DNA from: Castor canadensis
Lineage: Eukaryota; Chordata; Mammalia; Rodentia; Castoridae
Length of the DNA stretch: 64,000 bases
Assembly (NCBI RefSeq): GCF_047511655.1
Contig: NC_133400.1
Coordinates: forward strand, 6,716,001 to 6,780,000
Direction: 5' to 3'
Below, piece by piece: positions 6,466 through 59,850 of this stretch. The first letter of the stretch is position 1. Each line of letters begins with the position of its first letter. A program made the position numbers and the translations under genes. Below the pieces are notes generated by a model. It saw only the letters and a program-made list of their open reading frames with translations, was not told the DNA's origin and ran no database searches.

Positions 6466-6766
6466 ATGAACACAGTAGGCTTGGTACTCTTGGGGCTCTC
6501 TCTGAGATTTGGGGCCACCACTGCTAAGCCAGAAGAGGACGGTTTTTGCTCTAAGAACCAGGTGGCCTTCAGAGATGCTTGCTATGAATTTGTGCCACTT
6601 GGACGTCCCTTCCATGGGGCTCAGAGCTGGTGTGAAGGGCAAGGAGGCCATTTGGTCTTCATCCATGATGAAGACACCCAGCAGTTTCTGCAAAGGCACA
6701 TCCCTCAGGACAGGGAATGGTGGATTGGACTCACAGGGACCTCGGCACCCAATGGGACCTCAGGAG
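6466..6766 (+). CDS. PKD1L2: PKD1L2 exon 1: start codon, signal peptide, first half of C-type lectin domain
   Basis: The ATG is preceded by an in-frame TAG at 6403-6405 with no other in-frame ATG between, and has A at -3, so the start is well supported. Residues 1 to about 20 form a hydrophobic signal peptide ([20 protein letters not shown]). The rest is the N-terminal half of a C-type lectin fold, with paired cysteines and the hallmark WIGL motif near residues 87-90. The exon ends after codon 100 plus one base at a GTAGGT donor (phase 1). This domain would bind carbohydrate or another ligand outside the cell. The exon is intact. Confidence 0.95.
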
Positions 6767-9195: not shown

Positions 9196-9360
9196 GGCCT
9201 GGGATATGGCTGGACACCTCAAACGTGAGCTACAGCAACTGGCGGAGAGGCCAGGCCACGCCTGCCCCCCATACCTGTGGCTACATCGAGAGAGGCCCTT
9301 CTTCTGAGTGGGCAGCCTCGGAGGATTGCATACAGGCCTTTGCCTCCATCTGCGAGTTTG
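9196..9360 (+). CDS. PKD1L2: PKD1L2 exon 2: second half of C-type lectin domain
   Basis: The acceptor CCAG precedes GGCCTGGGATATGG; the phase-1 junction gives G-P-G-I-W-L-D. It contains NVSYSNW, and cysteines in CGYI, EDC and SICEF complete the lectin disulphides. It ends phase 1 at GTAAGC. The next intron is only 420 bp and strikingly pyrimidine-rich. The exon is intact. Confidence 0.93.
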
Positions 9361-9780: not shown

Positions 9781-9949
9781 GAGTGGGCCAGAGCTTGGCC
9801 TGTGAAGGCCTCAATGCCACCATGCACTGAGGATGTCCAGGATGCCTTCTACGGGCGACAGACCCCCCATTATTGCACCCAGGGCACCTGGCATCCCTCA
9901 GACCTGGAGGAGGAATGCAGCTGGGTCAGTGTCAAGGATGAAGTGGCAG
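9781..9949 (+). CDS. PKD1L2: PKD1L2 exon 3: SUEL lectin domain, N-terminal half, frameshifted
   Basis: This exon encodes the start of the SUEL/rhamnose-galactose-binding lectin domain. The normal frame gives SLACEGLNATMH and then TGA at 9828-9830. The conserved continuation VQDAFYGRQTPHYC lies in the +1 frame from about 9832 and runs to the donor GTAGGT with the phase exon 4 needs. Compared with the SUEL domains of latrophilins, about six residues between the second Cys and the YGR motif are missing, so a deletion of about 17 nt (net 2 mod 3) is inferred. The exon length, 169, is not a multiple of 3 although its neighbours require that. Skipping it would restore frame. Confidence 0.9.
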
Positions 9950-15014: not shown

Positions 15015-15125
15015 GACAGTGCCAGGGGCTGCAGGCATGCCAGGTGGCAGCAGATGGAAGCTACTTTGGAGACCTGTGTTCTACTCTGGGCAGCTACCTG
15101 TGGGTCCACTACCAGTGCCAGGAAG
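15015..15125 (+). CDS. PKD1L2: PKD1L2 exon 4: SUEL lectin domain, C-terminal half
   Basis: The phase-1 acceptor CTAG gives [11 protein letters not shown], then SYFGDLC and SYLWVHYQC. These match the C-terminal half of SUEL domains (FGDxC and YLxVxYxC pattern). It ends phase 1 at GTGAGT. The frame is open and the key cysteines are present. The upstream intron is about 5 kb and repeat-rich. Confidence 0.93.
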
Positions 15126-15999: not shown

Positions 16000-16147
16000 G
16001 CCTGAGGCTGGTTGTGCCCAGTGTAAGTTTTGTCTTTGACAACGTCACCATCTCTCTGACATGGCTCCTCTCTCCCTATGTCGGAAACCTGTCCTGTGTA
16101 CTCAGCATGGGAGATGGCCGCACTCTGGATCCCTACTACCCTCCCAG
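16000..16147 (+). CDS. PKD1L2: PKD1L2 exon 5: PKD-like Ig fold, first part
   Basis: The acceptor CTGCAG precedes GCCTGAGGCTGG. It encodes [19 protein letters not shown] followed by MGDGRTLD, the strand and D-G pattern of a PKD domain. It ends phase 2 at GTAAGA; the split codon reads through to Ser with exon 6. It is intact. Confidence 0.9.
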
Positions 16148-23542: not shown

Positions 23543-23772
23543 TGTGTCCAGCAACGTGACCCACCAGTTCACATCTCCTGGGGAATTTACTGTGTTTGCT
23601 GAGTGCACAATGAGTGAGTGGCATGTGACAGCTCAGAGGCAGCTGACACTGCGAGACAAGATGGAGAGCCTCAGGGTCACTGGGTGTGCTGGCCTGTCCA
23701 GGTCCGGGGCCAGCCTTCTCTGCCGGACTGTCTTCGGGGATCCCCTGTGGATTCAGGTGGAGCTCGATGGAG
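23543..23772 (+). CDS. PKD1L2: PKD1L2 exon 6: end of PKD-like fold and linker
   Basis: The phase-2 acceptor CGGCAG gives [10 protein letters not shown]. It continues with [11 protein letters not shown] (the PG-x-YxV-like strand of PKD repeats), then a linker with SLRVTGC and [11 protein letters not shown]. It ends phase 1 at GTGAGT. The preceding intron of 7.4 kb is full of old L1 and SINE sequence. The exon is intact. Confidence 0.9.
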
Positions 23773-25561: not shown

Positions 25562-25966
25562 GGACAGGGGTGACTTATACTGTGCTTTTGGGTAACATAA
25601 CTCTGGCTGAGTTTACCTCCCAGAGGGATTTGCTACCCTACAATCTGACCCTGGACAAAGAAACCCAGGAGCTGATGGGCCCTGGGACACACCACCTGGA
25701 GATCCAAGCCGTCAGCAACAGCACCACCTCTGCACCTTCTGGAAATGTCACCGTCTACTTTGTGGAGTTGTTGTCGGGGCTGGAGGCCTCCTGGGGTTCT
25801 GACCATGTGCAGCTTGGACAGGACCTATTGATCAATGTCTCAGTGGCTAATGGAACCCTGGAGGAGCTAACCTTTGAGGTGGTGGGACTCAATGCAAACT
25901 TCTCCCAGAAGGAAGAGCGTTTTGGGGAGCCATCTGGGACTTACCATGTGACACTTCCTGTTGAAG
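25562..25966 (+). CDS. PKD1L2: PKD1L2 exon 7: Ig-like/REJ ectodomain segment
   Basis: At 405 nt this is the longest exon in the window, acceptor CATCTAG. It contains several N-glycosylation sequons (NIT, NLT, NST, NVT, NVS, NGT, NFS), as expected for an extracellular region. The stretch [15 protein letters not shown] and the strand-rich sequence after it resemble Ig-like and REJ-type folds of polycystin-1 proteins. Phase 1 in, phase 1 out, donor GTACTC. The reading frame is fully open. Confidence 0.92.
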
Positions 25967-27927: not shown

Positions 27928-28146
<219 letters not shown>

Positions 28147-31793: not shown

Positions 31794-31843
31794 CCCCTGC
31801 TAGTCTCCAAGAGCCATCTGGAATGAGTACTGAAGAAAAGAAT
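31794..31843 (+). CDS. PKD1L2: PKD1L2 exon 9: short ectodomain linker
   Basis: The acceptor TTCACAG precedes CCCCTGCTAG; the peptide APASLQEPSGMSTEEKN links exon 8 (phase 1) to exon 10 (phase 0) at donor GTGAGT. An antisense L1 3' fragment (31320-31744) ends only 49 bp before the exon, so the usable branch-point and pyrimidine region is confined to that gap. The exon is assigned by phase and position more than by a domain signature. Confidence 0.75.
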
Positions 31844-34058: not shown

Positions 34059-34176
34059 AGACACAAAGGGGATATAGAGGTGTATGTCAAGCCTGGTCTA
34101 TACGTGGATCCTTTCACAACAGTTACTCTGGACTGGCCAGGCGAAGACAAGGACTTACGCTTCCACTGGTCATGTG
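34059..34176 (+). CDS. PKD1L2: PKD1L2 exon 10: REJ-like region, start
   Basis: The acceptor TTCCGCAG starts in phase 0. The peptide includes [18 protein letters not shown], which resembles the L-D-x-S/W...F-x-W-x-C opening of REJ-like modules in polycystin-1 proteins. It ends phase 1 at GTAGGT. It is open. Confidence 0.9.
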
Positions 34177-35188: not shown

Positions 35189-35386
35189 GGCATTGCTGGG
35201 CCCAGTGGAATGACTGTGTTGAGAGGCGGCAGCTCCGCACAGACCAGAGGGAGCTGGTGGCCCCACCATTCTGCCTGCCACCGCCTGACTCTGCTGTCAC
35301 TCTGCGTTTGTCCATCCTGAGGGGCCAGGAGCTTGAAAATGAGACAGAGCAGTGTCCACCCCTCTGGACCTCAGGCCTAAAGTCAG
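35189..35386 (+). CDS. PKD1L2: PKD1L2 exon 11: REJ-like region, frameshifted near its 3' end
   Basis: The acceptor TTTCAG gives [12 protein letters not shown], then [19 protein letters not shown] and ELENETEQC. From about 35353 the frame switches: the last codons make sense as L-R-P-K-V in the frame that exon 12 needs (phase 2), whereas the upstream frame reaches the donor GTGGGT in phase 1. Joining to exon 12 in the upstream frame gives a TAA after about eight codons. A deletion of 1 mod 3 bases (about 10 nt by recollection of the human protein) in 35352-35372 is inferred. Skipping this exon alone does not restore frame. Confidence 0.87.
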
Positions 35387-37280: not shown

Positions 37281-37401
37281 ATGTGAGAAAAACTGCTGGC
37301 CAGTAAATGCAGATGAAGACATTCTGCTTAGGGTCACTTTGGAAGATGACACCCCAGTGGCCATGTTCAGCTGGTACTTAGATGATTCGTCACCATACAA
37401 G
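37281..37401 (+). CDS. PKD1L2: PKD1L2 exon 12: REJ-like region
   Basis: The acceptor CTTCCAG needs a phase-2 predecessor; in that frame it reads CEKNCWPVNADEDILLRV, then DTPVAMFSWYLDD, characteristic of the REJ region (C-x-x-NC and F-x-WYLD). It ends phase 0 at GTGAGG. The coding sequence is intact, but the frameshift in exon 11 puts it out of frame with upstream exons. Confidence 0.92.
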
Positions 37402-37834: not shown

Positions 37835-37976
37835 GTCCAGCACGTCCCAGCTGCCTGCAGACTCATGGGGTTTTGGCCACGCTCTCTGACTCTCCTTCAG
37901 AGCAACACCTCCACACTACTGCTGAACAGCAGTACCCTGCAGACCTGGGGTCAGGTAATCCGGATTTGGACCACAG
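37835..37976 (+). CDS. PKD1L2: PKD1L2 exon 13: REJ-like region
   Basis: The acceptor CTTGCAG, phase 0, gives ACRLMGFWPRSLTLLQ and SNTSTLLLNSSTL, with two N-glycosylation sequons, ending VIRIWTT at donor GTGAGA (phase 1). It is open and in frame with exons 12 and 14. Confidence 0.93.
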
Positions 37977-39814: not shown

Positions 39815-39991
39815 CACTGACCAGGCACGCCTATGGGGAGGACACCTATGTGATCAGCTCTCTGCCTCCCCTCGAGATGCCCACTTGTGTGATTGTCCCA
39901 GAGGAGGCCACCATACTGACAAGCTTCGCCATTCTCTGTAATGTCTCCATGACCCTGCACCCCCTGGAGTACTGCTTCTGTCTGGAATCAG
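39815..39991 (+). CDS. PKD1L2: PKD1L2 exon 14: REJ-like region, followed by weak GC donor
   Basis: The acceptor TTCCACAG gives [19 protein letters not shown] and [12 protein letters not shown]...YCFCLESG, a cysteine-rich block typical of the family. The donor is CAG|GCATTG (GC at 39992-39993). Unlike functional GC donors it lacks AAGT at +3 to +6, so splicing is probably weak or lost; reading on reaches TAG at 40000-40002. The exon is 177 nt with phase 1 on both sides and could be skipped in frame. Confidence 0.92.
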
Positions 39992-39999
39992 GCATTGGC

Positions 40000-42070: not shown

Positions 42071-42213
42071 GTTCCTGCCTACACTGTGGCCCTGAGCCAG
42101 CCCTCCCATCTGTTTACCTACCACTTGGAAAAGACAATGACTATGTGCTTACAGTGGTCATTTCTGTCACTAATCAGGCAGGAGACAGACAGCAGACCAA
42201 TGCAAAGGTTAAG
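42071..42213 (+). CDS. PKD1L2: PKD1L2 exon 15: ectodomain, [19 protein letters not shown]
   Basis: A strong pyrimidine tract and CCAG acceptor. The phase-1 junction to exon 14 rebuilds Gly-Ser-Cys. The peptide includes [25 protein letters not shown] and a basic end. It ends phase 0 at GTGGGT. It is intact. Confidence 0.93.
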
Positions 42214-42849
42214 GTGGGTGGTTGTGATAGCCTTTGTTTCTTTCTTGAACTTTACCACAAGGGTGACTGGGTGGAAGGCAGAAGAGGGCATAGCCAGTGA
42301 ATCACTTATTTTACTCATTCCTTCAATAAATATTTACAGGGTGTCTACTAAGTGCCAAGCCCTAAGGATATGTCCACAAACATATAGACCTGGGCTCTAC
42401 CTTTGTAGATCTACGACTAAGTGACAAGGGTGGGAGGCGCAGAAGGATTCAAGCATGAGTTAGGCTAGTGTCTTCAGAGAATACAGGGGAAGGAGGACCA
42501 AGATCAACCAGCAAGGACACAGGCAGCCTTGTGCCCTGGGCAGGACTATGCAATGCAGAGCCAGGATAAATCCCAAGATTTCAAGGTCCATAAACCAGGT
42601 AGAGATGGGAGGGATGGATAGGATGAAGAGGACAGCTAGAGGTGAAATGAGAGTTTGCCCAAGACTTGGTTTTGGTGGTTGTCAGCTGCCTGGAACAAGT
42701 GGGTCCTAGTGCCCTCCAACCTCAGGAAGTATCCAGGAGCCCCATGCCAGGCCTGCTCTGTTTCCCCACATGAAGACCACGATTTCAGGCATCAAGTTCT
42801 TGAAGAAGGACCACTGAGCCCGTTTCCCCATTTCTGGTTTTCCTGTCAG

Positions 42850-43044
42850 GTGGGACTTGGTGACACAGGTGTGAAGAATGGGGCAATCCAGGCTGCTATG
42901 TTGGAAAGAATCGCTGTTGCTCTGCAAGGCGAGCATAGCCCTGAGCAGCTCCTCCAACTGGCCAAGTCTGTGTCTTCTGTGCTGAACTTGGAGGACCCAG
43001 ACCAGAACTCCGAACAGCTGCTGGGAATGGACATGAGATGGAAG
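42850..43044 (+). CDS. PKD1L2: PKD1L2 exon 16: helical ectodomain segment
   Basis: The acceptor TGTCAG, phase 0. The sequence QAAMLERIAVALQGEHSPEQLLQLAKSVSSVLN is cut here for length only; it is a helix-rich segment upstream of the GPS, as in GAIN-like subdomain A. It ends phase 0 at GTGCTT, a weak donor at +3 to +6. The reading frame is open. Confidence 0.9.
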
Positions 43045-43329
43045 GTGCTTGAGACAGCTTCTTTGATTCCTTCTGCTGGGGTCTCCATGGTCTCTATGAA
43101 GCCACTTGGGGTGGGGTGGGGGCAGGGTTCATGGACCAGTGGAGAAGCCTTTAGTGTCTCCAAGTGGTTGCTGTCATCTCCCACTCTGATCCTTCCAGTG
43201 AGGGACATACAGTGAAAAAAATGCCCTTGTTGTTGATAACCTGTGTTCTCTGCTCACTGTCACCAGTCCTAGGCTTCTGGAACTGGAAGGGAATGTAGAC
43301 AGTATTGCTCTAACCCCTTCATATCAAAG

Positions 43330-43750
43330 ATGATGAAACCAAGGCCCAGTATGCCTAGGCAGGACTGTGAAACTTCTAGAGGTTCTGGGGAAGAATCAAC
43401 TCCTTGCCTTTTCCAGCTTCTAGAGGCCACCTGCATTCCTTGGCTCATGGCCCCTTGCTCCACCTTTAAATTCCTTTCCTCTTCCCCAAGCCCCCCACCT
43501 CTGCCTCTGTCATCTGTCTCCTTCCCTCAGTCTTACCCCCCTGCCTTCCTCTTACAAAGATCCTAGGACCACAGCATCCCGCCTGTTAATCCAGGACTCT
43601 CTTCCCATCTCAGGATCCTTAAATTAGCCACAGTTCAAAAGTGATTTTGCCAAAGTGACTTTTGTCCTGTGAAGTAACATGTTCACAGGATTGGAGGATT
43701 AAGACATGGACGTCTTTGGGAGATCACCATCTGGCCTACACACATCCTAT
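43330..43750 (-). repeat. Old dispersed repeat, antisense copy of the shared family
   Basis: CTTTTCCAGCTTCTAGAGGC and GGAGGATTAAGACATGGACG are the reverse complement of landmarks in 49655-50100. Confidence 0.6.
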
Positions 43751-43887
43751 GAGGCAAATGCAGGTTTATGGGGCTTGCAAAACCTGGATGAACCTGACCA
43801 CTCCTCAGATTCCAAATCTTCCTGAAATGCCTCTATGGAGTCTCTGGAATTACATTTCTTCTCCTGGCCTTTTCCCCCTGTGCCAAG

Positions 43888-44019
43888 GTCAGAGAGTGTG
43901 TGCTGGGGTCACTGTCCATGATCACTGCCAGCCTGGAGGATATGCAGAGGGTGCAGGGGCTAGCCGAAGTACTGAGAGAGGTGACCCACTTCAGTGAGGA
44001 GCTCACACCCTCAGCCCAG
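43888..44019 (+). CDS. PKD1L2: PKD1L2 exon 17: helical GAIN-like segment
   Basis: The acceptor TGCCAAG, phase 0 in and out (132 nt, donor GTAAGA). It encodes [20 protein letters not shown] and [20 protein letters not shown], amphipathic helices as in the region before the GPS of polycystin-1-like proteins. It is intact. Confidence 0.92.
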
Positions 44020-45487
44020 GTAAGAATTTCTACTTGCTGAATCAGGCCATGGCACACACACCTTCATGGCAGGAGGGTGACAACCCAGAGGGGCATAGTT
44101 AAGGGGTCTCTCAGTCATGGGCTCTCTTGGGGTTGCCAAGACTTCTGCCATCTTCTTTCCAAGAGTCCTGTATGGGTGGTGCAAGTGAAGGTGCCCCCTG
44201 GTTGCATAATAGGTGTGGTGGCCTGTCTGTCCTCACCCCTCACCCCTCACCTGCTAGTGAGCAACTCAAGGGAGTACCTGAACGTTATTCATCTTTAGGC
44301 ACCAAGGGCATGTCCAGATGCTGCTGCTGACCCACCCTGTCCTCGCACCTCAGTACATACCAGACTGGTGTCCAGCTGCCAGCTCCTACCTTTCTAGCCT
44401 GGGACCCTTTCCTAACCCCCAAAGACCCTCCACCTGCCCCCATTGCAGGAAATTAATGCAATGCCCAGTGACTGATGAGGCTGGTGCACAGATACCCCAG
44501 CTCCTTCACCCCTTTTGGAGGATAACTTCCAAGCAGGACCGAGTCCCAGGTAATGGGCTTGATCACATCTCCCAAACTGGATTCCCACCCTTGCCTGTCT
44601 AATATCCCTACGCCTCTTTGGATGGTCCCTGGAACCACCTCCAAATAAATGACTTGCTCCCAAATCCTGGTCTCAGCATCAGCTTCCTGAAGAACTCAAA
44701 TCAAAGGACCACATTCCCAGGGTTAAAAAGCAGCCATAAAATCAGCAAAAGGGGAGAATTGCCCTGGCCCTGTCCCACCCAACCCCCCACCCCAGCCTGA
44801 AGCTCACAAGGCTGGAATTATTTCAGGGGCCAAGGCACTGTTCATGTAACATTTGATGCACCATGTGTTCATCCATCTGTTTTATGTGCATCCACATATT
44901 TGTCCCTATGTGCCTCCATTTCTCCATCCTCTGTGCATTTATTCATGCATGAGTTCATTCACTCAACAAATGTTTCCCGAATGCTTATGTGCTGGGTGCT
45001 GAATTCCTTGAGAATTCAGTGACAAGTCACACACATGGACTCTGTCCTCATGGCACTTTCAGACTATTAGGGAAGCCAGACATTAAACAAATAATTTTGC
45101 AAATACATATATAATTATTAAACTGGAATAAGTGCTATGTCCATCTATGCATCCTCCATCCATCCATCTGTCAATCTTCCTTCTGTCTATCCTTCCATCC
45201 TCCATCCATTCAGCAAGTTACTGAGACCTACTATGTGCAGACTTAGGGAAGGATTCAGAGGCAGATCAAGCTATTTTCCTGGAGGATCTTAGATCCTTGT
45301 GAGGAAGGAGGACCAGGTCTCAAGTCAGGAATATAGGCTGCTTATGTGATGGGCCTGGTCCAGCCCTTTCCTGGCTTTGGGCCCTGCCTTGCTCCCCTCT
45401 ACTGCATCTCTTGTTATTGAATGGCATAGGGACTGATCTGTCCCAGGCAGGGGCTCACACTGCTTTTCCTTCTTTTGACAAACCCAG
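44020..45487. other. Intron 17: nothing firm
   Basis: (CCAT)n-like text near 45140-45210 and a possible MIR/L2 trace around 44945-45000. No coding block seen. Confidence 0.5.
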
Positions 45488-45670
45488 TGGGAAGCCAGCC
45501 AGGCTCTGTGGCAGGCCAGTGAAGCCCTCTTGACTGCAAGTGCCAAGACCCATCCTGAGGACCAGAAGCACCAAGCAGCTACCAGGGACTTGTTTTGGGC
45601 TGTGAGCAGTGTACTGGAAGCTTCCCTGAGCCATGGACCAGAAGAGGCTGTGGAGACCAATAGCAGCCAG
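45488..45670 (+). CDS. PKD1L2: PKD1L2 exon 18: helical GAIN-like segment
   Basis: The acceptor AACCCAG, phase 0, 183 nt. It is alanine-rich helix (WEASQALWQASEALLTASA) followed by QAATRDLFWAVSSVLEASLS. The donor is CAG|GTGGTT, weak beyond +2. It is open and conserved in style with exons 17 and 19. Confidence 0.92.
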
Positions 45671-45840
45671 GTGGTTGATCCAGGGCAGACACAGATCTCA
45701 TGTCCACTGTATGTCCAGCTCACACCAGCATTTCTAGGGGATCTTTCTCCCCATCTTACAGATAAGGCAGCTGAGGCACAGAAGATTAAGTATTTCCCAA
45801 GGAACCGGAAGAAAGGGTTCAGAGAACAAAATCCTTGAGA

Positions 45841-45993
45841 GGCAGTGTGGTGGAGTGGGCAGAGTGCAGGCTCTGGGACCTGGCAGCCTGACTCTGAATC
45901 CTGCCTCTCACTTATAAGCCTCATGACTCAGGCAAGTCACACAATTGCCCTAAGCCTCATTTCCTCATCTGTCCACGGAGGCACCCTGCCTCA
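45841..45993 (+). repeat. MIR SINE
   Basis: GTGTGGTGGAGTGGGCAGAG, TCTGAATCCTGCCTCTCACT and CCTAAGCCTCATTTCCTCAT follow the MIR core in order. Confidence 0.75.
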
Positions 45994-46261
45994 TCCCAGA
46001 TCAGCTGCTGTTAGAGAGGTCATATGTGCCCCCTTGAAAGTTTGAGTGAAGTCCTAGTTTATATAGACAAGAACACAGAACATTTTTAGAAGAGTCAGCC
46101 ATCCAGGACGTGAATAGGTGAGACACAGGTGGCCCCCTGATGGGGCACAGGATGAGGTTTCCCAGGAGAGCATCGTGACGGAGCTGCAAAGCCCAGTTCT
46201 AGCTTCTCCGCAGTCCCTTATCCCAGAGTCCACCCTTCCTATTCAGAAAGACCCGAAGGAC

Positions 46262-46715
46262 AGTGACATGCAAAGATGCCTACATACAGAGTCACATGCT
46301 CACACATGACCACACGTCAGACACACTCCAACACATACACATTCACTCTCACCCTCATCCTCTCCCTGTCCCTCTCTCTCACACACACTCAAACACAGAT
46401 ACACACTCACACCCCTCACAAATAAACATTCACACCCACAGTCACACACCCACACACTCACACACTTAGGGGCACCCACTTACTCTCTCACGCCCTCAAG
46501 CATGCTCTCTCACAATCTTCACACATGGCAATGCCAGCACACACACAGGTTGTTACATACAGTGTGCTCACACACAAAATCCCCTACCCACACCCAACAC
46601 CCACAGTCGCACACACCTGTGTACACCGACATACATTCACACGCTCGTCCTTGCAGAGACTTGCATGCACATACCCAAACACTTGTGCATGCATGCACAC
46701 AGGCACACGTGCACA
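46262..46715 (+). repeat. CA-rich degenerate simple repeat block
   Basis: Some 450 bp dominated by ACAC/CTCACAC variants with almost no G on this strand. It generates spurious long open frames on both strands. Confidence 0.9.
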
Positions 46716-47248
46716 CAATGGGTCCATCAGCCCTCTGCAAATGCCCACCCTTCATGGGTCCTCATCTCAGCCGTGGCATCATGAGAACATGTCTTATCTG
46801 GGGGTTTGGATGGTGGCCCATGGAATGGCCTTGGCTGTGGCTCTCTACCTGGAGAGAGTATCACCTGGGTCAGGTGTGGATGTCACCAAGCACAGATCCC
46901 ACACAGCATGACTGCTCAGCTCACAGGCCCTGAGCCAGAGGCTTACTCACAAGCCTTTGCTCTTCTTCTTGTCAACATGTGACCAGTCGCCTTTCCTCTG
47001 TGCCTCTGCTTCCTCTTCTGCCAAAGGGGAGGATAAAGCACCTACGTCAGAGAGATCAGGAGGGTGAGAAAGGTTCACATGAGCTGGGCATTTGGAATCT
47101 CTAAGTGCTGCTCTTACCATCACCCACAGGGCTCTTTCTCCCTTACTCTGTCCCCTCCTGCTGAGGGCCCCACACTAGCCTGGTGACAGTAATCAGAAGT
47201 GGCCTAGGGTGGCAGTCCACAGTTGTATTCTTCTGCCTCTCTTTCCAG

Positions 47249-47373
47249 GCTGCCACAGTGGCCCAGCTGCTGGGGGTTGTGGAGCATGTGCAGACTGCCC
47301 TCCTGCTTGGGACACTACCCAGGGGCCTTCCAGTCACCCTGGCCACCCCTGCCATCTCTGTGTACACAAATAG
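47249..47373 (+). CDS. PKD1L2: PKD1L2 exon 19: GAIN-like segment
   Basis: The acceptor CTTTCCAG, phase 0. It encodes VAQLLGVVEHVQTALLLGT and LPVTLATPAISVYTNR. The ISVYTNR stretch marks the passage into the beta-rich part before the GPS. It ends phase 2 at GTAAGC. It is intact. Confidence 0.93.
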
Positions 47374-47478
47374 GTAAGCAGCTATACTGTGTGTCCTCAA
47401 GGAAGCTCATACCCTAGTTTCCTCATTCTATGCCCATGAGGCCAGCCTTGGGGGGCTAAAGTGCCAGGACCTAGAACT

Positions 47479-47497
47479 GGGGGGGGGGGCGGCGGGA
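47479..47497 (+). repeat. G-run
   Basis: Eleven consecutive G, then CGGCGGG. Confidence 0.95.
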
Positions 47498-47804
47498 TTC
47501 ATCGAGAAAAGCCACCCCCACCAGGGTGGGCATTTACACTCTCAAAAAAATATTTGTTCACCACCTATTAAGTGCCTGACACTCTTCTAGAACAAAGCCT
47601 GTCTTCATGGTGCCTCCAATCCCACATAGGGGCATCATCTGCCTCTGAGGCTGCTTCTACTGATACAAACATGCAGAACCTGCTAAAGATGGCAAAAGAC
47701 AGCTGCCCACTCTGATGGCAAGTGGAATCTCCCTGAGGCTCAGGAAGCATGGGACTTGCCCTCACACTGATTTTCCCCTCCCTCCGTTCTTACCCCATGG
47801 CCAG

Positions 47805-47931
47805 AATACAGCCGCAGACGTGGCGAGGCTCCTCTGTGCACATTGCCACTACCAACTCTGTGACCTTCACGCTGCCTGCCACCATGTCCCTCTGCCCTAT
47901 GGAGGATGGCCGGGAGCCTGTGGACATAAGG
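47805..47931 (+). CDS. PKD1L2: PKD1L2 exon 20: GAIN-like beta segment
   Basis: The acceptor GGCCAG; the split Arg codon is rebuilt with exon 19. The peptide IQPQTWRGSSVHIATTNSV then VTFTLPATMSLC and GREPVDIR. It ends phase 0 at GTAACA. It is open. Confidence 0.92.
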
Positions 47932-48298
47932 GTAACAACAGCAGTACCTCCTTGGGGACAGCCCTTTACAGCTTGCCAAAGCATTCTCACTTGCGTTTGC
48001 TCGATGGTGTTAAGAGCAGTCCTGTCTTACAGGTGAGGGTCAATGACATGTCAGAACCACACAGTAAGTAGCAGAGCTGGGATGGGGACTCACAGCTCTG
48101 GGCATACAAATCTATCCTGTTCTCGCCGTGTTGCAAAATTTCTCCCACAAACTTGTCTTCATGAGTCATTGGGAAGAACGCTCTTCAGGTTCAGTTCTGC
48201 CACTAGGTACTCCCAAGGCCCATCCCCAATTAAGGCACATGTGGCTCCTGACTCCTTGAGCCCTAATGAAAGTAGGCCAGGACCTTTCTCTTTGAGAC

Positions 48299-48585
48299 TT
48301 ACAGTCATCCCTTGGTATCCATGGGAGTTAAGCTCTGTAAATATCAGAATCTGTGGATGCTGAAGTTCCTTCCGTAACACGATGCAGTGTTTGCATGTGA
48401 CCTATGCACCTCTTCCGGTACACTTTAAATCATCTCAGGATCGACACAACGTAAATTTAGGAAGAATGATAAGAAAAAGTCTACGCATGTTCAGTACAGG
48501 TGCAATTTTTAAAAAAATAATATTTTCCATCCATAGTTAGTTCAGTCCACAGATCCAGAACCAAGAGACAAGGAGGTCTGACTAC
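48299..48585 (+). mobile_element. MER2-like (Tigger-type) DNA transposon relic
   Basis: CCCTTGGTATCCATGGGAGT, AATCTGTGGATGCTGAAGTT, ATGTTCAGTACAGGTGCAAT and TCAGTCCACAGATCCAGAAC follow MER2 from end to end. Confidence 0.75.
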
Positions 48586-48860
48586 ATTGACTTTTTGGGA
48601 AGAAATATTTCATACTCCAGTAATTGCTCAACCAAGGAAATCTGACTTGGGTTCTCCAGGACCAGCCCTCTGAGGCCACAGCCTTAAAGGGTAGAAATGT
48701 GTCCTGAAAACCAGCAGCTATTGAAGGTGGGGTCCTCTCTGCACCCCACAGGACAAGGGTTGTTTATCTACCCTATCTTAGGATCTAGTCATTCACATAG
48801 GGACCTGTTACCCTCTACCTCTTGGGAGCCTGGGCCAATGCTTTCTGCTCTTGCTTTCAG

Positions 48861-48992
48861 ATGATGAGTCTCTCAAAGAGCCCCTTTCCAGTCCAGAGTC
48901 GCTTTGATGTCAGTGGGACCATTGGTGGCCTTGTTCTGACCAGCCCTAGTGGACAGCCCATCCCTGTGAAGAACCTGTCTGAGAATATTGAG
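48861..48992 (+). CDS. PKD1L2: PKD1L2 exon 21: GAIN-like beta segment
   Basis: The acceptor GCTTTCAG, phase 0, 132 nt. MMSLSKSPFPVQSRFDVSG, then GGLVLTSPSGQPIPVKNLS, and ENIE at donor GTAGAA. The P-V-K-N-L-S-E-N-I-E motif is typical of the segment preceding the GPS in this family. It is intact. Confidence 0.93.
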
Positions 48993-49304
48993 GTAGAAGT
49001 TGGGGTACTGTCAGAGGCCAGATGGCACTTAGTCTTCTTTTTCAACTTGATTAGGACTCAAAGTTGGCTGGTTATGAAAGCAATGGCTAAAGAAGTGAAT
49101 CATTCAAAACCATCCTTACCCTACCTTAAACACGTTATTTAATTTCAAACCATAAATGTATGGCCATTTGCACATCTTTGGGTATCTAACAAGAAGTTTT
49201 CCTGGGATATGAATCTGTTGATTGGAATTTTAATCATCTTAGTTGTACAAGTCACCCATATAATATAGCCTCTAAAACACCTGGTTAGATTCTCTTTCTT
49301 TCTT

Positions 49305-49538
49305 TCTTTTTTTTTTTTTTTTTTTTGGTGAGACCGGGGTTTGAACTCAGGGTTTTGTGCTTGCAAAGCAGGAGCTTTGAAGGTGCTTGAGTCACACCTT
49401 CAGTCCATTTTACTCTGGTTATTTTGGAGATGATGTCTCTCAAACTATTTGTCAGGGGTGGCCTCAAACTGTGATCCTCCTGATCTCAGCCTCCCAAGTA
49501 GCTAGGATTACAGGTGTGAGCCACTGGTGCCTAGCTTA
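49305..49538 (-). repeat. B1-ID dimeric SINE, antisense, long poly(T)
   Basis: A T run of about 18, then GACCGGGGTTTGAACTCAGG and CAGGTGTGAGCCACTGGTGC. Confidence 0.88.
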
Positions 49539-49654
49539 GATTTTCTTTAAAGTTAAGCAAAAGCAGTGCAGTATGAGTTTGAATTCTTTTAGAATATTAA
49601 TGATTTATATCTAGTCATCTCATCTATTTTCTCATTCATGACTAATTCAATAAC

Positions 49655-50100
49655 AGTTGGTAGGGTGTCCACGTCCCCATCCCTGGAGCCTGTGTATATA
49701 TTACCAGGGACTCTGCAGATGTGACTTAGCTAAGGACCTTGAAACGGGGAGTTAAGCCTGAATAGTCTAGGAAGCTCATTGTGATCATGAGGGGCCTTGG
49801 AAAAGGGAAGAAGGGGGTGGACATTGACTACAGGCAAGGAAAAGGTGACTTGGTGACAGAAGCAACAGGTCGGAGCAATGTGAGGGAGGGGCCATGAGCC
49901 TAGGAATGCAGGTGGCCTCCAGAAACTGGAAAAGGATGAGAAAATGGATTCTCCGTAGAGCCTCCAGAAGGAACCAGCCCCACCAACTTCAGCCCTATGA
50001 AACTGACTTTCAACTTCTGACCTCCAGAACTATAGGATAACAAATTCATATTGTTTTACGTTATCCAGCTTGTGGCTGTTTGTTCTAGAAACCATAGCAC
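49655..50100 (+). repeat. Old dispersed repeat, copy 2 of the shared family
   Basis: GTCCACGTCCCCATCCCTGG, TGCAGGTGGCCTCCAGAAAC and CTTCTGACCTCCAGAACTAT; ends about 100 bp before exon 22. Confidence 0.6.
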
Positions 50101-50200
50101 AGCATGGATTTCAGCTCCCAGATGCTTCCCTGCCCAGGTCTGTGAGGGGTGTGATGCCACCTGGCTGCCACTTTCTTGATCTCATTGTTTCTGGTGGCAG

Positions 50201-50423
50201 ATCCTGCTGCCCCGTCATTTGGAAGGACACAGCGAGCCGACTGTCATGAGCCTGGCCACACCTGAAACACTATGGGTGAACGTGACCACAGGGGAGGTGG
50301 CTCTGGGGGTCCAGCTACACTGGAGACCTGACGTCCCACTCACACTCAGCCTGGGCTATGGCTACCGCCCCAATGGGACCAGTTATGATGCCCGAACACA
50401 ACTGCTACCAGCCACTGCTCCAG
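50201..50423 (+). CDS. PKD1L2: PKD1L2 exon 22: pre-GPS beta segment
   Basis: The acceptor GGTGGCAG, phase 0. It encodes ILLPRHLEGHSEPT, LWVNVTTGEVALGVQLHW and LTLSLGYGYRPNGTSYD, beta-rich with two sequons. It ends phase 1 at GTAGCC. It is open. Confidence 0.93.
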
Positions 50424-50922
50424 GTAGCCCTGCTCCCCGGGCTATTTCCTTGAGGTGGGGTACCTTCAAACTTGAGGATCAGAGCAAAGAAAAACCACCT
50501 GCCATGTAAAGGGGCTTACTTATGTTGGTCGTATTGGTATTATTTTTATTTGCCAACATGAGGTGAGCACTTACTGCATGCCCTGACAATGCTAACAAGC
50601 CCTTCCTGAACTATCCTTAATGTGGTGCTGGTGACAACCCTTGAGATACACACCACTGAAATCTCCCCTTATTAAACAAAAACAGAGAGGTTCAGTAGCT
50701 GATCTGAGATCTCACTGCCTATAAGGAGTAGAATTAGCATGTGAGCCCTTGTCTTTTTGACTAGCTCTGCACACTGACCAGGGGTGCCCTTTCTTCTGTG
50801 CTCCTACAACAGAGAGACCTTTGGGGTCTTCTTCCCTGCCATCTGCCTTGGTCCTTCTCTTCCATGATGTCAACTGCAATCTCACTGAGGCTTCAGACTA
50901 ATCAGAGTCCCCTTTGCTGCAG
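50424..50922. other. Intron 22: nothing firm
   Basis: A possible MIR-like trace (CAGAGAGGTTCAGTAGCTGA) near 50685; no other element recognised. Confidence 0.45.
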
Positions 50923-51116
50923 GTGAGCCATCCACATGGATCCTGGGCCCTGACGACTTGCCTTTTGGAGAGGGTATCTATTATTTGACTGTGGTTCCTG
51001 AGTCCAACCTGGAGCCAACCTCTGGCAGGGACCTCACAGTTGGCATCACCACCTTCCTGTCCCATTGCGTGTTCTGGGATGAGATCCAGGAGACTTGGGA
51101 CAACTCTGGGTGCCAG
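50923..51116 (+). CDS. PKD1L2: PKD1L2 exon 23: first half of GPS motif
   Basis: The acceptor TTGCTGCAG, phase 1. The sequence IYYLTVVPESNLEP and TVGITTFLSHCVFWDE, then TWDNSGCQ, holds the first two GPS cysteines (C-x-F/W-D and G-C). It ends phase 0 at GTAAGG. It is intact. Confidence 0.95.
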
Positions 51117-53160
51117 GTAAGGAGAGGGAAGCAAAGAAAAAGATACTGTGACTTGGTGGGGTTCCCCTTCTGGACTCTTTAGAGCAGTGTCTTGTGCCCA
51201 TCCATGGGACCTTTGCACATGCCATTCCCTGTGCCCAGAGTTCCCCTTGCCAAAACACAGCTTCCTTAAGAAAAGTACTCTTGACTCTGACTAGAACAGG
51301 GTCAAGATTTTTTGTTGTAAACTCACACGCTCCTTCTTCAGAGTGCTGAGCAGCACAGTCATCTGAACCCTGGGTGAGATCATTTGAATTTTGTCTGATC
51401 CCTTGGTGCACTGGGGGCCCCAGGAGACAGGAACACTATGCTTTACCCCTGGGGACAAATGACCATCAAATGAGTGGACAACCTCAGGAAACCCTGTGGA
51501 CTGTGGGTAGCCAGGGAAGGCCAGAGTGTCATTTCCAAGGAAATAGACTCAGCTGCTCCTTTATTTTCTGCCAAGTGTTGCATTCCCTGCTTGACTAGCT
51601 TCATATAATCACATTGTCACACGAATCTCCTAGAGCCGCTACTCTGTTTTACAGGTAATGAGATGAAGGCTTGGGAAACTCAATGAACTTGCCCCAAATC
51701 CCACATGTTGTATGAGGAAGAGCTGGGGCTGTAGGCCAGGTCTGTCTGTGACCATGGCATGTCTTCCCCAGTGCTCAGAGTCCTTTTGAACACCAGATGG
51801 CTTTAGTAAGTCCAATCAAATCCTCAGCTCAGCTCAGCTCTGCCCCCAGGGCACTGAGGCCCATGAGAGGGTGGTGCAGACATGCATCGACCTTGAGGCC
51901 AGCAGAGCCCTTTCTGGGGAATCTCTGTCCTGTCCCTTTCCATGAGCTGTATATGTTGCCCTCTTCTCCTGAATGCCCTTCTTACCTACCCTTGCCCAGA
52001 AAACACCTATTACCCTATGTCTCTCACTCCAGAGCCCTCTTCCTGGGAACTCTTCCAGGTGTCTTGAGTCCCCTGCTGTTGGACTTCCACAATTTATCAC
52101 CCATCTGTCTCCATCTACAGACCACAAGTACCTTCTTTCATTTATCCACCAAATGTTCACCATGTCCCAGTGATGGGGCCATACAGTGAGCTCTCAGCCT
52201 AGCAGTGGATGCAGAGCAGAAGCAAATGGTACGCACTCGTCTAATGGCAACCATCACAAGCGCTATAAAAGCCATGGCCCACCAGAGCCAGGAAGGAGGA
52301 CACTCAAGTGGAGCTCCTTCTGGGCTGTCTCTGTTCTGGTCACAGTTTCCTCTTCAATTCCTGTCCTGGCTTCTGGATACCAACTTCAGGGAGCCCCACA
52401 AAGCCCCAGAAAGAAACAAAAGCACACAGAGCTGTCCAAGAGACAATGGGGTCCCCATGCTCATAGCACAATCCTTTGTACCTCTGGGAAAAGCCTGGGT
52501 ATTGTGGCATCCTCCCAGAATTCTCTGCTTCCAGAACATTGGACAAGTTGCCCCACCTCTTGGAGCTTTCCCATCTTAAAATAAGGATAAGGAGTGGCTG
52601 CCATGTAGAGTTAGGTGGGGCTTTGTCATACAGAGTACTTAGCACCATGCCTGGCATAGCGTGCATGGCCCATAGGCTAAAGCAATTGCTGTGTTAAACA
52701 CTCACTGTCTATAAAACAGATGCCAAGGAAACAATGACTGAGAAGTCAAGGATGGTGGTTGGGAGGGGGTGGGAACAGGTTGGGGGAGGTCCACTTAGCT
52801 AATCCTAGGCTATTGGGAAGTTTCTAGTTGTGAGTTTACAGATGCTTATTATGTTATTAAAAAATTCGCTTTTTGTGCAGACACACATGATAATGGGATA
52901 TGCAGAGGTCATATGTGGGAGCATTCATGGACCCCAAATTATGATTGATGTAATATTAGCTACTTGATGCTCATTATAGATACAGCTTTAGATATATGGG
53001 ATTGTTACACAGACCATCAAGTTTGGATAGAAAAACTACCACTGAATTCTCTAAGCAGCCAGAGCAAGGTTCTGTATGTATCTTTTCTCAAAGGATACTA
53101 AAAGTGCAGTTGTTGCCACGGGAAGATCCACAGATCAATCTCTGATGTTCAAAGAATTCT
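51117..53160. other. Intron 23 left part: old L2/MIR traces, no gene
   Basis: Phrases such as CCTTTGCACATGCCATTCCC (51212) and CTTCTTACCTACCCTTGCCC (51979) suggest diverged L2. AGCTCAGCTCAGCTC is a short repeat at 51827-51841. No conserved coding block. Confidence 0.45.
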
Positions 53161-53164
53161 TGTG

Positions 53165-53235
53165 GTCTGGGGGTGTAGTTTGGTGGTAGAGCACTTGCCT
53201 AACATGCACCAGGCTCTGGGTTCTATTCCCTAGGA
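53165..53235 (+). repeat. ID-like SINE
   Basis: GGGGGTGTAGTTTGGTGGTA and GGGTTCTATTCCCTAGGACC. Confidence 0.75.
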
Positions 53236-53321
53236 CCTTCCTGCCCTGCCCCCCAAAAGGGACCCTCATGCTAGAAAGGGCTGGGAATGCCACTGACCTC
53301 AGGGATTTGTGAAAGCCCTGG

Positions 53322-53430
53322 AGGTGCCAGACATGGTAGCATGTGTCTAAAATACCAGCACTGAGGCAGGAAGATAGAGAATTCAAGGTAATCCTAGGCA
53401 ACATAGTATGACCCTGTTTCAAAAAAAAGT
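53322..53430 (+). repeat. B1-like SINE
   Basis: AGACATGGTAGCATGTGTCT and GCAACATAGTATGACCCTGT, A-rich purine tail. Confidence 0.7.
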
Positions 53431-54555
53431 GAAAGAGGGAGAGAAAGAAAGAAACAAAGAAACAAAGGGAAGAAAGGAGGAAAGAAAAGAAAGAACCCTG
53501 AAGGACAAAGATATTGGGCATAAACGAAGACGGGTCCCTGACTCCAGCACCAAGGTCTGATCACCAGCACCTGCTTGGATCTCTTCTCTGAAAGCAGCAA
53601 CACCCCTTCCTGGTGCCAGGTGTTCCCGTAAGGCCCACAGCTGTGGGTCAAATGCTGAGCAAGGTGAGGTAACAATGAGAAACACCACAAAACAAACATA
53701 GAACCAAGAGCCACCTGAAATTCATAATAAATAGCTGGCCCCATGCCCATGTGTAGGGCGAGCCTTTGCTGGTGGTTCATTAAGGGAAAGAGGCAGAATT
53801 ACCTATTGGGTCATAATTGGGCTGCAGAGAGGTTCTTCCTACCAGGTGTCGAGGGGAGAGCTTTCCAGATGCGAGTCTCTTGTGCCCTTTCCTTCCGTCC
53901 CACTTTGTGGCAGACCCTGGAATGAAAAGTGGTGCTGCACTGAAGGGCTAAATTGACTCTTCTTCACCCCTCAAATGGTTCTAGAGTGAGAGACCAAGCT
54001 GGCTGAGGCATGTGGGGACGGCTTGCCTTAACCATGCAGGAATGAAGCACGAGTACACCCAGACCAGCTCCTCTCTGCCCACCTGCTGTTCCACACCTTC
54101 CTGGCATTGAGATGCCAGCCTAAGATTTGAACACTTGTCCTTTCCTTTTCTTTTCCATGACTCCCAATCTGGCTCTTTGCTCTTCAGTATAAACTGACCG
54201 ACTATCCCAGTTTACTGACAAGAGTTCCTGGGACTCAGGACTTTGAGTTAGAAAAGCCTGAAAGTCCCGGGCAAACCGAGACAAGGTGTTTACCCAGATT
54301 GCTTTCAGCTGTGCTCTCAACTGGCATGTGGCCAGGCACAGTGTTAGTACCCAGGAAATGATTGTCCTGTGAAAGAGCATCAAGTGGGCCAACGATGGGA
54401 GGGACACAGGACAAGTCTGTGGATGCTTTTGGGGGTGGGGACAATGGAGACTCCAACCTCACCTGCAACACTTCTCTAAAACAGGCAAAGCAGATTGACA
54501 AACTGTTCAGACTTCCCAAGAGGGTGCTGGGTTTGTTAAAATGATATTTATTCTC

Positions 54556-54632
54556 TGGGCTGCAGACATAGTTCAATGGTAGAGCTCTTGCCTACCATGC
54601 ACAAAGCTCTGGGTTCCATCCTCAGCATCATG
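54556..54632 (+). repeat. ID-like SINE
   Basis: CATAGTTCAATGGTAGAGCT and GGGTTCCATCCTCAGCATCA. Confidence 0.8.
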
Positions 54633-54741
54633 AACTAAAATCATATTCTTTGAATTTGCAAATTGATTTTAAATAAGAAAGCCCAGGGGAATCCCGAAGC
54701 CTGGGTCTCAGCAGTCTGAACAGTCCCCCCCCTCCCCAGGT

Positions 54742-55010
54742 TAGTTGTTCCTCTGTATCCAAGGGTCATGAATTCCAGGTCTGCCTGTGGATGCCAAAAT
54801 TCATAGGAGCTCAAGTTCCTTCTATTTTAAAAAGGTGTAGTATTTGCATGTAATCTGCACACGTTTTCCTGTAAACTTTAGCTCATCTTTGATTAGTTTT
54901 GATAACGTAACACAGTGTAAATTCTGTGCAAATAGTTGCTATACAGCACAGACACATTTATTTAAAAATACATTTTTCATCTGAGGTTGACTGAATCTGT
55001 GGCTGACTAT
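54742..55010 (+). mobile_element. MER2-like (Tigger-type) DNA transposon relic
   Basis: TTGTTCCTCTGTATCCAAGG, GTAGTATTTGCATGTAATCT and TGAGGTTGACTGAATCTGTG; same family as 48299-48585, ending about 100 bp before exon 24. Confidence 0.7.
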
Positions 55011-55114
55011 AAAATGTTCATCCCAAAGTGGATGTCATTTTTCTCTCCTGGGGCTCAAGTCATCCAGGGATGAAGTCCCAAAGGTTTCTACCAATGACCA
55101 TTTGTGGGTTGCAG

Positions 55115-55345
55115 GTGGGGCCTCAGACCACCGCCTCCCAGACACACTGCTTGTGCAACCACCTCACCTTCTTTGGAAGCACATTCCTGGTGATGCCCAA
55201 TGCTGTTGACGTCCGTCAGACTGCTGAATTCTTTGCCACCTTCGAGGACAACCCTGTGGTTGTGACCACTGTGGGCTGCCTCTGTGTGGTCTATGTGTTG
55301 GTGGTGATCTGGGCAAGGAGGAAGGATGCAAAGAATCAGGCCAAG
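55115..55345 (+). CDS. PKD1L2: PKD1L2 exon 24: GPS cleavage site and first transmembrane helix
   Basis: The acceptor GGTTGCAG, phase 0. It begins VGPQTTASQTHCLCNHLTFFG: the last two GPS cysteines and the autoproteolysis tripeptide H-L|T (codon-equivalents about 1305-1307) are present. Helix 1 follows near 1337-1357 (TTVGCLCVVYVLVVIW) and is closed by the basic cap ARRKD, so the C-terminal side enters the cytoplasm. Phase 0 out at GTGAAG. It is intact, so the cleavage chemistry is preserved. Confidence 0.96.
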
Positions 55346-56548
55346 GTGAAGTTGAATGGCCTCTGGGAATGGGAGGGAAAAGCAAGGGGCATCCTCATGC
55401 AAGGGCTCTGGGGGACAGAGCCCAGGTGGGTTGCTGAAAGGCCAGCTGCTGTCCAGGCCTTAATGTCTGGGGTCATCTTAGCCAAACTAGCCCATTTCCC
55501 TAGTTATCTACAAAATGTCCTTTTCATCAAATTATCAGGAAGAATATGCTGCTGACCAATAACTGAGGACTTATTAAGAGTCATGCATTAACCCACTTAA
55601 TGCTCACAGTAGCCCTAGGAGAAAGGTGCCTGTGTTGAGGGTCTTAAGACCGCTCTCAGGCTCAATGATTTGCTAGAAGAACTCACAGATCTCAGAATGG
55701 TAAATGAACTCATGGTTAGGATTGATTACAGCAAAAGGACACAGGTTAAAATGAGCAAAGGACAAAGAGACCAGATTTGGCTTCTGGTTGTTCTCTTCCC
55801 ATGGAGCCTACAGAGGCAGTGTTTAATTTTCCCGTGATGGTGTGTGATGACATGCAGGAAGTATTGTCAACTCACCTGAGTTTTGGTGTCCTTGGAGTCA
55901 GACACCCTAGTAGGCAGTGCCTGACTGCCTGACCTCAATGACTGTCTCCAGCCTCCCCCAGCAGAGATCAAACTGGCACAGTCAGCCCAAGGCTCAAGGC
56001 TTCCACCATAAATCTCATTGTCAGCATAGGCTGTCTGGCCTGCCCCAATGCCTCAGGTACGCACGGGATATTCCATTGACTTCGAATTTATCACCTGGGA
56101 CCATGGCCAGTCCTTTCTTTGGAATGTGCAGGGTTTGAACACCCCAAGTTTGCTGAGTGTACCCTACACTGCATAGCAGCTCTGTCACCTCAAAGAGGAG
56201 GCGGTCAACAATGGAAAGGTCAATCAATTGGCCTAAAGTTACCAAATGGGAGCCAGAATTTAAACTAGATCTGACAGCGTAAGATAGGGCTGAAGGTAGA
56301 AATGAGATCAAACAACAAATTGCTCAGCAAATTATTTGAAACAACAAAATTATTCATTTTAATTTTGTTTTACTGATATGTTTTACTTGGAACCTTGTAT
56401 AAAGAAGCATTCTCACCTGATGGAATGAATACATAGCACATGGGGTTTTTTGCCCTTTATCTGTCTTGAACACCCCATTCGTTGTTGGCCAGCGTGTGAT
56501 GAGTGAACTCACTGAGCAGAGTCCTCCTGACACTGTCCTTCTGTCCAG
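55346..56548. other. Intron 24: nothing recognised
   Basis: No named repeat or gene-like block seen; ordinary sequence with a good acceptor tract at its end. Confidence 0.5.
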
Positions 56549-56650
56549 GTGAAAGTCACAGTGCTGGAGGACAATGATCCCTTTGCCCAGTACCACTACC
56601 TGGTTACAGTCTACACTGGACACCGACGAGGAGCAGTCACATCCTCAAAG
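56549..56650 (+). CDS. PKD1L2: PKD1L2 exon 25: start of PLAT domain
   Basis: The acceptor CTGTCCAG, phase 0, 102 nt. The peptide VKVTVLEDNDPFAQYHYLV then TVYTGHRRGAVTSSK is the opening strand and loop of the PLAT/LH2 domain (the Y-x-V-x-V-x-T-G signature). It ends phase 0 at GTACCC. It is intact. Confidence 0.94.
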
Positions 56651-57736
56651 GTACCCACAACACGACCCCTTGGTCAATCTGCATGTCCACCCAGCAAAGC
56701 GTTCCTCTGCTATTGAGGAGTGACCTTAGCACAGTGGATAGGTGTTGGAAGTTTTTCTCTCTTTTGACTTTGTTCGTTAGAGGAAAGGATCTTTTGTCAA
56801 ACAAAAGATTACCTTAAGCCCCAATACTTGAAAGGACAAAGGAGGAGTGCTTCAGAAAGGGCCAAGTCTACCCATGAGCTCTGAGCATCTCTCCCCCTCC
56901 ATTCGAGAATCACCCAGCATTCAGTTTGTTGCCCAAAGGCAGGTATGCTCACAGATGAAGCAGCCAGTCAGTAAACGTATCAAGAAAAATGGGGGAGACA
57001 CAATTCCTGAGTGAGAAGGAAGAAAGGAAAGAAGGAAAACATTTGAGAACAGCCAGTCTTGATCTAGACTTGAGGTGCATTGAGCCAAGAAGTCAGGTGC
57101 AGCTGCCTATCCTGGCTGACGAGAGGGATGGAGGAAAAAATTCCAACTGTTTGTGGAGTCTCTGCGATGCTTGAGTGTTTAGCCATGTTGCATGTAGCAG
57201 GCTTCTCCGTACTGTCCTAGCCTCCTTAATCAAGCCTGGCCTGGGCCATGTCCTCATCTGAATACATCAATCATCCCTGCAGCAGCCTCTGAGATTCCCT
57301 TGTGAGAGCTGAGGGGTTCATGGGATGCAGTTTGGGAACTAGGAACTATCATGGCTTGTGTGCATAGTACTGGAGAAAATGCCATTGTTTTCAAATATGA
57401 AATTAGATTTTATGAGGGTAGGGTGTTTATTTTGTTTTTTAAATTATGTTATTTTATTATGTGCATTTTATTTTAAAATTTAAACATTTTCATTTACTGC
57501 CATGTGTTAGGTCCTAGATCAGCTGTGTGACTGAGTCAGTGCTTGGTAACTATTTGTTGAAGGAACATAGGGCCCATTTTCATACAACCGGTGACATACC
57601 ACTCCCTTCCACTTGATCCTGAAGAGTCAGCCTCAGTAGGAGAGCAGTGAAAAGTCTCTCGTTCACAGGCCATTTCTCTTCATGGAGAGTTGTCACACTT
57701 CAACCTGATATTGCCTGAGTTTGTGTTCACCTAGAA
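56651..57736. other. Intron 25 left part: nothing recognised
   Basis: AT-rich region around 57400-57490; no clear repeat family. Confidence 0.5.
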
Positions 57737-57840
57737 CAGTGGTTCTCAACTAGAGGTGATGTTGCCCCTGGGTACCATTGGCAGGGCCGGAGACATCCAG
57801 GCCCCAATGTCAGTAGTAGAGGTAGAAAAACCCTGCTGTT
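57737..57840 (+). mobile_element. MER20-like hAT DNA transposon relic (internally deleted)
   Basis: It starts CAGTGGTTCTCAACTAGAGG, continues GGGTACCATTGGCAG and ends near GAAAAACCCTG, the MER20 termini. Its end is duplicated by the L1 insertion that follows. Confidence 0.65.
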
Positions 57841-57925
57841 GGTGGGGAGGAGAAGGAAGGTGGCACAAACAGTGTATGCACATGTAAATAATGTAAAAAT
57901 GATAAAATAAAAGGAAAAAAGAAAA
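57841..57925 (+). mobile_element. 85-bp L1 3' tail with perfect 17-bp target duplication
   Basis: AGAAAAACCCTGCTGTT occurs at 57824-57840 and again at 57926-57942. Between them is a purine-rich start, CAGTGTATGCACATGTAAAT and an A-rich tail, the same 3' end as the L1 at 483-936. Confidence 0.88.
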
Positions 57926-57942
57926 AGAAAAACCCTGCTGTT

Positions 57943-58798: not shown

Positions 58799-58977
58799 GT
58801 AACTGTCACCCTGTATGGCTTGGATGGAGAGAGTGAGCCCCACCACCTGTCAGACCCCGACTCCCCAGTTTTTGAGCGAGGAGGAGTGGATGTCTTCTTG
58901 CTTTCTACCCTGTTTCCCCTGGGAGAGCTGCAGAGCCTCAGGCTATGGCATGACAACTCAGGGGACCGGCCATCCTG
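58799..58977 (+). CDS. PKD1L2: PKD1L2 exon 26: PLAT domain core
   Basis: The acceptor GATTTCAG, phase 0. It encodes VTVTLYGLDGESEPHHL, FERGGVDVFLLSTLFPLG and LRLWHDNSGDRPSW, the L-x-x-W-H-D-N-x-G signature of PLAT domains. It ends phase 2 at GTGAGT. It is intact. Confidence 0.95.
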
Positions 58978-59657: not shown

Positions 59658-59850
59658 TTTTTTTTTTTTTGGTAGTACTAAGATTTGAACTCAAGGTAGC
59701 TGAGATGACAGGCGTGTACCACCAGGCCTGGCTTGTTGGTTGAAATGAGGTTGGGCTAAATTTTTGCCCAGGCTGACTTTGAACCTTCATCCTCCTGGTC
59801 TCCGCCTCCCAAGTAGCTGGGATTAGAGGGTGCAACACCATGCTTGTTCT
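59658..59850 (-). repeat. B1-ID dimeric SINE, antisense, shortened
   Basis: TTTGGTAGTACTAAGATTTG and CCTCCCAAGTAGCTGGGATT. The ID half is truncated. Confidence 0.75.

Follow-up and report, generated by a model that had tools for sequence, protein, structure and literature searches.

Does the gene PKD1L2 still encode a protein in the animal from which this DNA comes? The question is raised by one exon near the left end of the window, as we call the whole stretch of 64,000 nucleotides analysed here; a sequence-only reading had identified it as exon 3 of PKD1L2, encoding part of the SUEL lectin domain, and had seen in it a frame-breaking deletion followed at once by a stop. That interpretation is supported by the analysis reported here and is best widened from one exon to loss of the whole gene, because there is a second frame-breaking deletion, and two splice sites may be lost as well, one probably and the other possibly. 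Very probably this is a unitary (single-locus) pseudogene of PKD1L2, inactivated recently in a castorimorph rodent that is almost certainly a beaver.

PKD1L2 lies on the + strand, from an ATG at 6466 to beyond the right end of the window, and 29 exons spread over about 57 kb could be placed by eye with the aid of splice-site scripts, after which their phases were tabulated (Table 1). With introns present between these exons the locus is not a retrocopy. Joined and read through, the exons give 1648 residues, of which the best match is the protein of Dipodomys merriami (78% identity), and 57 of the first 60 matches span 99-100% of the joined exons (120 listed of 457 matches). Exons 15-29 encode the end of the REJ region, the GPS region, the PLAT domain and the first membrane part, as placed by ortholog alignment; one codon is absent from exon 15, in frame. 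Two other exon models were rejected: an earlier start for exon 6 proposed by a script, since the phases fit a start at 23543, and a candidate exon at 26996-27106, since orthologs pass from LPVE directly to GTFLVTV.

Table 1. PKD1L2 exons and candidate lesions mapped in the window (positions are those of the window).
Feature	Position	Strand	Description
Exon 1	6466..6766	+	ATG at 6466; encodes the first half of the C-type lectin domain and, as judged by eye, a signal peptide; no lesion, ends in phase 1
Exon 2	9196..9360	+	Completes the C-type lectin domain; no lesion, phase 1-1
Exon 3	9781..9949	+	Encodes the first half of the SUEL lectin domain; length 169 nt, frame broken
Lesion 1, TGA at the break	9828..9830	+	17 nt net lost after TG of the conserved second Cys codon
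Exon 4	15015..15125	+	Completes the SUEL lectin domain; open, phase 1-1
Exon 5	16000..16147	+	No lesion, phase 1-2
Exon 6	23543..23772	+	No lesion, phase 2-1
Exon 7	25562..25966	+	No lesion, phase 1-1
Lesion 2, probable	27948..27949	+	Exon 8 acceptor GG, not AG
Exon 8	27950..28027	+	Open, phase 1-1; donor GC (CAG/GCAAGG), possibly an ancestral GC-AG intron
Exon 9	31794..31843	+	No lesion, phase 1-0
Exon 10	34059..34176	+	No lesion, phase 0-1
Exon 11	35189..35386	+	Lesion 3: 10 nt missing near 3' end, between codons for EQC and PLDLRPKV
Exon 12	37281..37401	+	Open only from phase 2, the ortholog frame
Exon 13	37835..37976	+	No lesion, phase 0-1
Exon 14	39815..39991	+	Open, phase 1-1
Lesion 4, possible	39992..39993	+	Exon 14 donor GC, weak context (CAG/GCATTG)
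Exons 15-29	42071..63555	+	Open, phases chain, AG/GT at mapped sites; gene runs past the window

The exon table and the ortholog matches agree with the earlier assignment of the gene, the domain and the exon number. The domain order is that of PKD1L2 (C-type lectin, SUEL lectin, REJ, GPS, PLAT, channel), with REJ and GPS assigned by ortholog alignment and the channel lying beyond the window. Pfam places Lectin_C on exons 1-2, where the domain is complete (4-107 of 107), and PLAT on exon 26, and finds SUEL_Lectin only below its curated cut-off, the second half of exon 3 matching profile positions 11-43 with an E of 0.015; the Dipodomys ortholog matches the same profile over 1-80 of 80 (E 8.4e-16). 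Exon 24 alone, which carries part of the GPS region, has no Pfam match. The best 60 of 144 matches to solved structures are named C-type lectin-like proteins and their receptors. The nearest protein matches are named PKD1L2 and the protein tree follows the species within rodents, which strongly favours an ortholog of PKD1L2 over the paralogs PKD1L3 or PKD1L1, although some of the matches listed are labelled polycystin-1-like 3 and the tree includes no certain paralog. In camel (P0066) and opossum (P0068) the PKD1L2-like models additionally have a glycine cleavage H domain (PF01597) or are named for one, presumably because annotation has fused neighbouring genes.

Rodent origin, which had also been proposed at the outset, is borne out by phylogenetic reconstruction. 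In a protein tree of 26 sequences the window stands beside Dipodomys, Thomomys and Perognathus (UFBoot 94), and a FastTree reconstruction of 63 sequences returns the same placement beside Geomyoidea with a local support of 0.82, so that the sequence falls within Castorimorpha and outside Geomyoidea. Castor is the only living genus of Castorimorpha outside Geomyoidea. The nearest species in the tree, Dipodomys merriami, Thomomys bottae and Perognathus longimembris, share 78, 75 and 74% identity with the joined read-through but, unlike the window, have full-length models, of 2447, 2459 and 2527 residues respectively, with all of the domains listed.

In the expected frame exon 3 reads SLACEGLNATMH and then TGA, the peptide before the stop being GVGQSLACEGLNATMH, whereas the +1 frame from 9829 reads EDVQDAFYGRQTPHYCTQGTWHPSDLEEECSWVSVKDEVA and reaches the donor at 9950; this remainder is coding and meets a sound donor in phase 1, as the sequence-only reading had described. 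Because the end of exon 2 and the start of exon 4 are both in phase 1, the length of exon 3 should be a multiple of three, and it is 3n+1. The size of the loss can be read from orthologs, which typically have MHCGSGEVIQxQDAFYGR at the break: the spacing from ACx to YGR is 20 residues in all 108 sequences that fit the search pattern used among the 120 listed of 457 matches, the other 12 being outside that pattern and uncounted (mouse, one of these, has the same length in a 19-species alignment). Exon 3 retains the TG of the second Cys codon, and against this spacing 17 nt net are absent, the very number estimated beforehand; comparison with relatives, made here with ortholog proteins, thus confirms the missing stretch.

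The exact event is reconstructed from proteins and permits several readings. After the retained TG the exon continues AGGATGTCCAGGATGCC, and Dipodomys has IRMQDA at the same place. One reading would be a deletion of 19 nt with two extra bases before CAG, since AGG ATG would encode R-M, and the repeated AGGATG would also allow for a filler that was copied from sequence downstream; the event was probably not a simple deletion of 17 nt, which would require additional substitutions. Nor does splicing offer an obvious repair, in keeping with the earlier observation that no splice pair sits at the break. The true sites of exon 3 score 9.6 and 6.1, and all in-frame alternatives score low: acceptors at 9758 (-0.6), 9902 (-1.2), 9944 (-10.2) and 9794 (-12.8), and internal splice pairs that start from a donor scoring -1.8, with no alternative donor preserving the frame in the splice-matrix scan. 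These scores come from a rough matrix of our own, which gives the true acceptor of exon 4 just -5.8.

A second deletion breaks the frame in exon 11. Orthologs read, with variation, EQC-LYVSAPLDLxPxVS-CE in the 19-species alignment, and here GAGCAGTG directly adjoins TCCACCCCTCTGGACCTCAGGCCTAAAGTCAG, such that 10 nt are missing within the stretch at 35330-35386; the deletion plausibly lies between two TG. As a consequence exon 11 ends in phase 1 and clashes with exon 12. Compared with the 62 near-full sequences among 67 mammalian orthologs, columns are missing just in exons 3, 11 and 15, and two residues scored as insertions fall in the shifted end of exon 11.

Two splice sites are also candidate losses, with different degrees of confidence. 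The junction at the start of exon 8 is fixed by ortholog proteins (LPVE/GTFLVTV), and the two bases that precede GTACC are GG in a context that otherwise scores 7.3; this is a probable splice-site loss. The junction at the end of exon 14 (CLES/GSCLHC) is likewise fixed by orthologs, and its donor scores 0.7 even with GC counted as GT; because 7 of the other 26 scored donors score 1.0 or less, and are thus as weak or nearly so, we grade this splice-site loss as just possible. The GC donor of exon 8, at 28028-28029, was rejected as a lesion: its context is strong (7.5), and 6 of 67 mammalian models read through it as TGK, which is what a weak or GC donor would encourage, a read-through which hints that it may belong to a conserved GC-AG intron. 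The remaining mapped splice sites are AG and GT. We do not argue for a clustering of lesions within exons 3-14, as the events are few and private amino acid changes do not cluster there.

Private changes were counted at 442 columns that are invariant but for at most one sequence, with the shifted residues near exons 3 and 11 excluded. The window carries 10 such changes where 59 reference sequences lead one to expect 2.9 (Poisson P about 0.001), which points to relaxed selection on the protein; exons 1-14 hold 4 of the changes and exons 15-29 the other 6. The reference rate was taken from 59 of 62 sequences, leaving out aardvark (P0060), humpback (P0063) and the marsupial outgroup (P0067), the three with higher counts. 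Of these, humpback whale has 24 private PKD1L2 changes against 3.3 expected and aardvark 13 against 3.0, both in models marked LOW QUALITY; it is possible that these are further losses of PKD1L2.

This relaxation is not matched by any long-standing excess of divergence. The root-to-tip length of the window in the 26-sequence tree is 0.252, compared with 0.289-0.365 in the three sister species, and exon by exon the window mostly diverges from the mammalian consensus no more than the sister species do. As branch length is not raised and exon divergence mostly is not, PKD1L2 was constrained for most of the history of the lineage, and the loss would have come late, since constraint has been relaxed without an accumulated excess of protein change. 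By a hand estimate, an excess of about 7 changes in 442, if it reflects free drift, corresponds to about 0.7% neutral nucleotide change and hence to some millions of years, an order of magnitude with a wide margin that depends on the neutral rates assumed. The absence of a raised root-to-tip length counts against a pseudogene, as do the 25 of 29 exons that are without a lesion.

The reading that we propose is as follows. The net loss of 17 nt brings the TGA of exon 3 into frame and the loss of 10 nt shifts exon 11, and the dinucleotides at the exon 8 acceptor and the exon 14 donor would have changed from AG to GG and from GT to GC. Spliced at the mapped sites, the transcript would specify a product of 171 residues, made up of a signal peptide (judged by eye) and the whole C-type lectin domain. 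With more than 29 exons in the gene, a stop as early as exon 3 is expected to expose the mRNA to decay, and such a transcript would presumably be cleared by nonsense-mediated decay, so that no polycystin would be made. No near-identical full-length protein is present among the 120 listed of 457 matches to the joined exons (best 78%), nor among the 120 listed of 489 matches to exons 16-29, where the best match over the full region is 80% and identity reaches 86% over 45% of it; this is as expected if annotators found no intact gene, provided that beaver is otherwise represented.

Of the alternatives, a functional gene in which exon 3 was misassembled or its bases miscalled survives best, although we regard it as improbable. 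The sequence comes from one assembly, and an early beaver assembly was reportedly built from uncorrected long reads of moderate coverage (PMC5295618), which may not be the present one. Against such an error, the net loss of 17 nt, the loss of 10 nt and the two odd splice dinucleotides differ in kind, and private changes at invariant positions are raised as well. Moreover, a protein predicted from metagenome contigs (P0148, with sources jgi and lgn, the latter taken as Logan) is identical to the translation of 6466-6894 at 142 of 143 residues, indicating that the sequence is good there at least, the match covering exon 1 and the start of intron 1 only. It was the one near-identical sequence among 28 matches in a search for the short product, and this identity indicates that a public metagenome contains host DNA from this animal or a very close one.

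Survival of the gene by joint skipping of exons 3, 8 and 11-13, which leaves a single frame open for 1412 codons in the window, seems to us most improbable. Exons 8 and 14 are frame-neutral to omit, as is exon 3 by the phases of its neighbours, three of nine skip sets are open (3 and 11-13; 3, 8 and 11-13; 3, 8 and 11-14), and exons 15-29 are free of lesions. However, several unrelated skips would be required together, exon 11 alone cannot be omitted in frame, good sites flank exon 3, and exons 15-29 hold 6 of the 10 private changes; skipping 3, 8 and 11-13 would also cost half of the SUEL domain and some of the REJ region. Equally slight is the chance that the truncated secreted C-type lectin of 171 residues is a retained product, for although its domain is complete, exons 1-2 are lesion-free and short models occur elsewhere (Myotis davidii, 260 aa; Microtus ochrogaster, 196 aa; maybe mere annotation pieces), a stop so far upstream should trigger decay and, in exon 2, an otherwise invariant F at residue 151 of the joined protein is privately replaced by S.

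An inactivated PKD1L2 has precedents. As described in one study, longer human PKD1L2 transcripts are polymorphic pseudogenes according to Ensembl (PMC5318412), and another, working with a set selected around an allele frequency of 1%, includes PKD1L2 with the genes that have two or three premature stops (PMC4773809). The human case concerns the same gene, but its lesions and lineage differ, and in the window the two deletions sit on one assembled sequence. PKD1L2 is also discussed among the candidates in a screen that looked for gene losses in mammals of low visual acuity, where a lens phenotype of knockout mice is noted (PMC9355568); the words 'Beaver' and 'Castor' are absent from its main text. 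No report of PKD1L2 loss in beaver was found in the literature searched, which leaves subscription papers and preprints largely outside it. The one paper in that literature with both PKD1L2 and beaver concerns colorectal cancer. Loss in beaver would therefore add a new lineage to an already known kind of loss. A more tentative proposal, which we consider possible though rather doubtful, is that beavers represent a further independent loss of PKD1L2, fixed and common to both Castor species, that joins the convergent losses in mammals that depend little on sight. If it is true, the suspected role of PKD1L2 in the eye or lens could be tested by a natural knockout that can be dated, in an animal with working vision.

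A unitary pseudogene of PKD1L2 at this locus would amount to a naturally occurring knockout of a polycystin that is poorly understood and is decaying in humans too. It would be a clean example of decay at an early stage in a large multi-exon gene, most of whose exons are still open, and, if fixed in beavers, it would provide one more independent lineage in which the function of PKD1L2, its suspected role in the eye included, may be tested.
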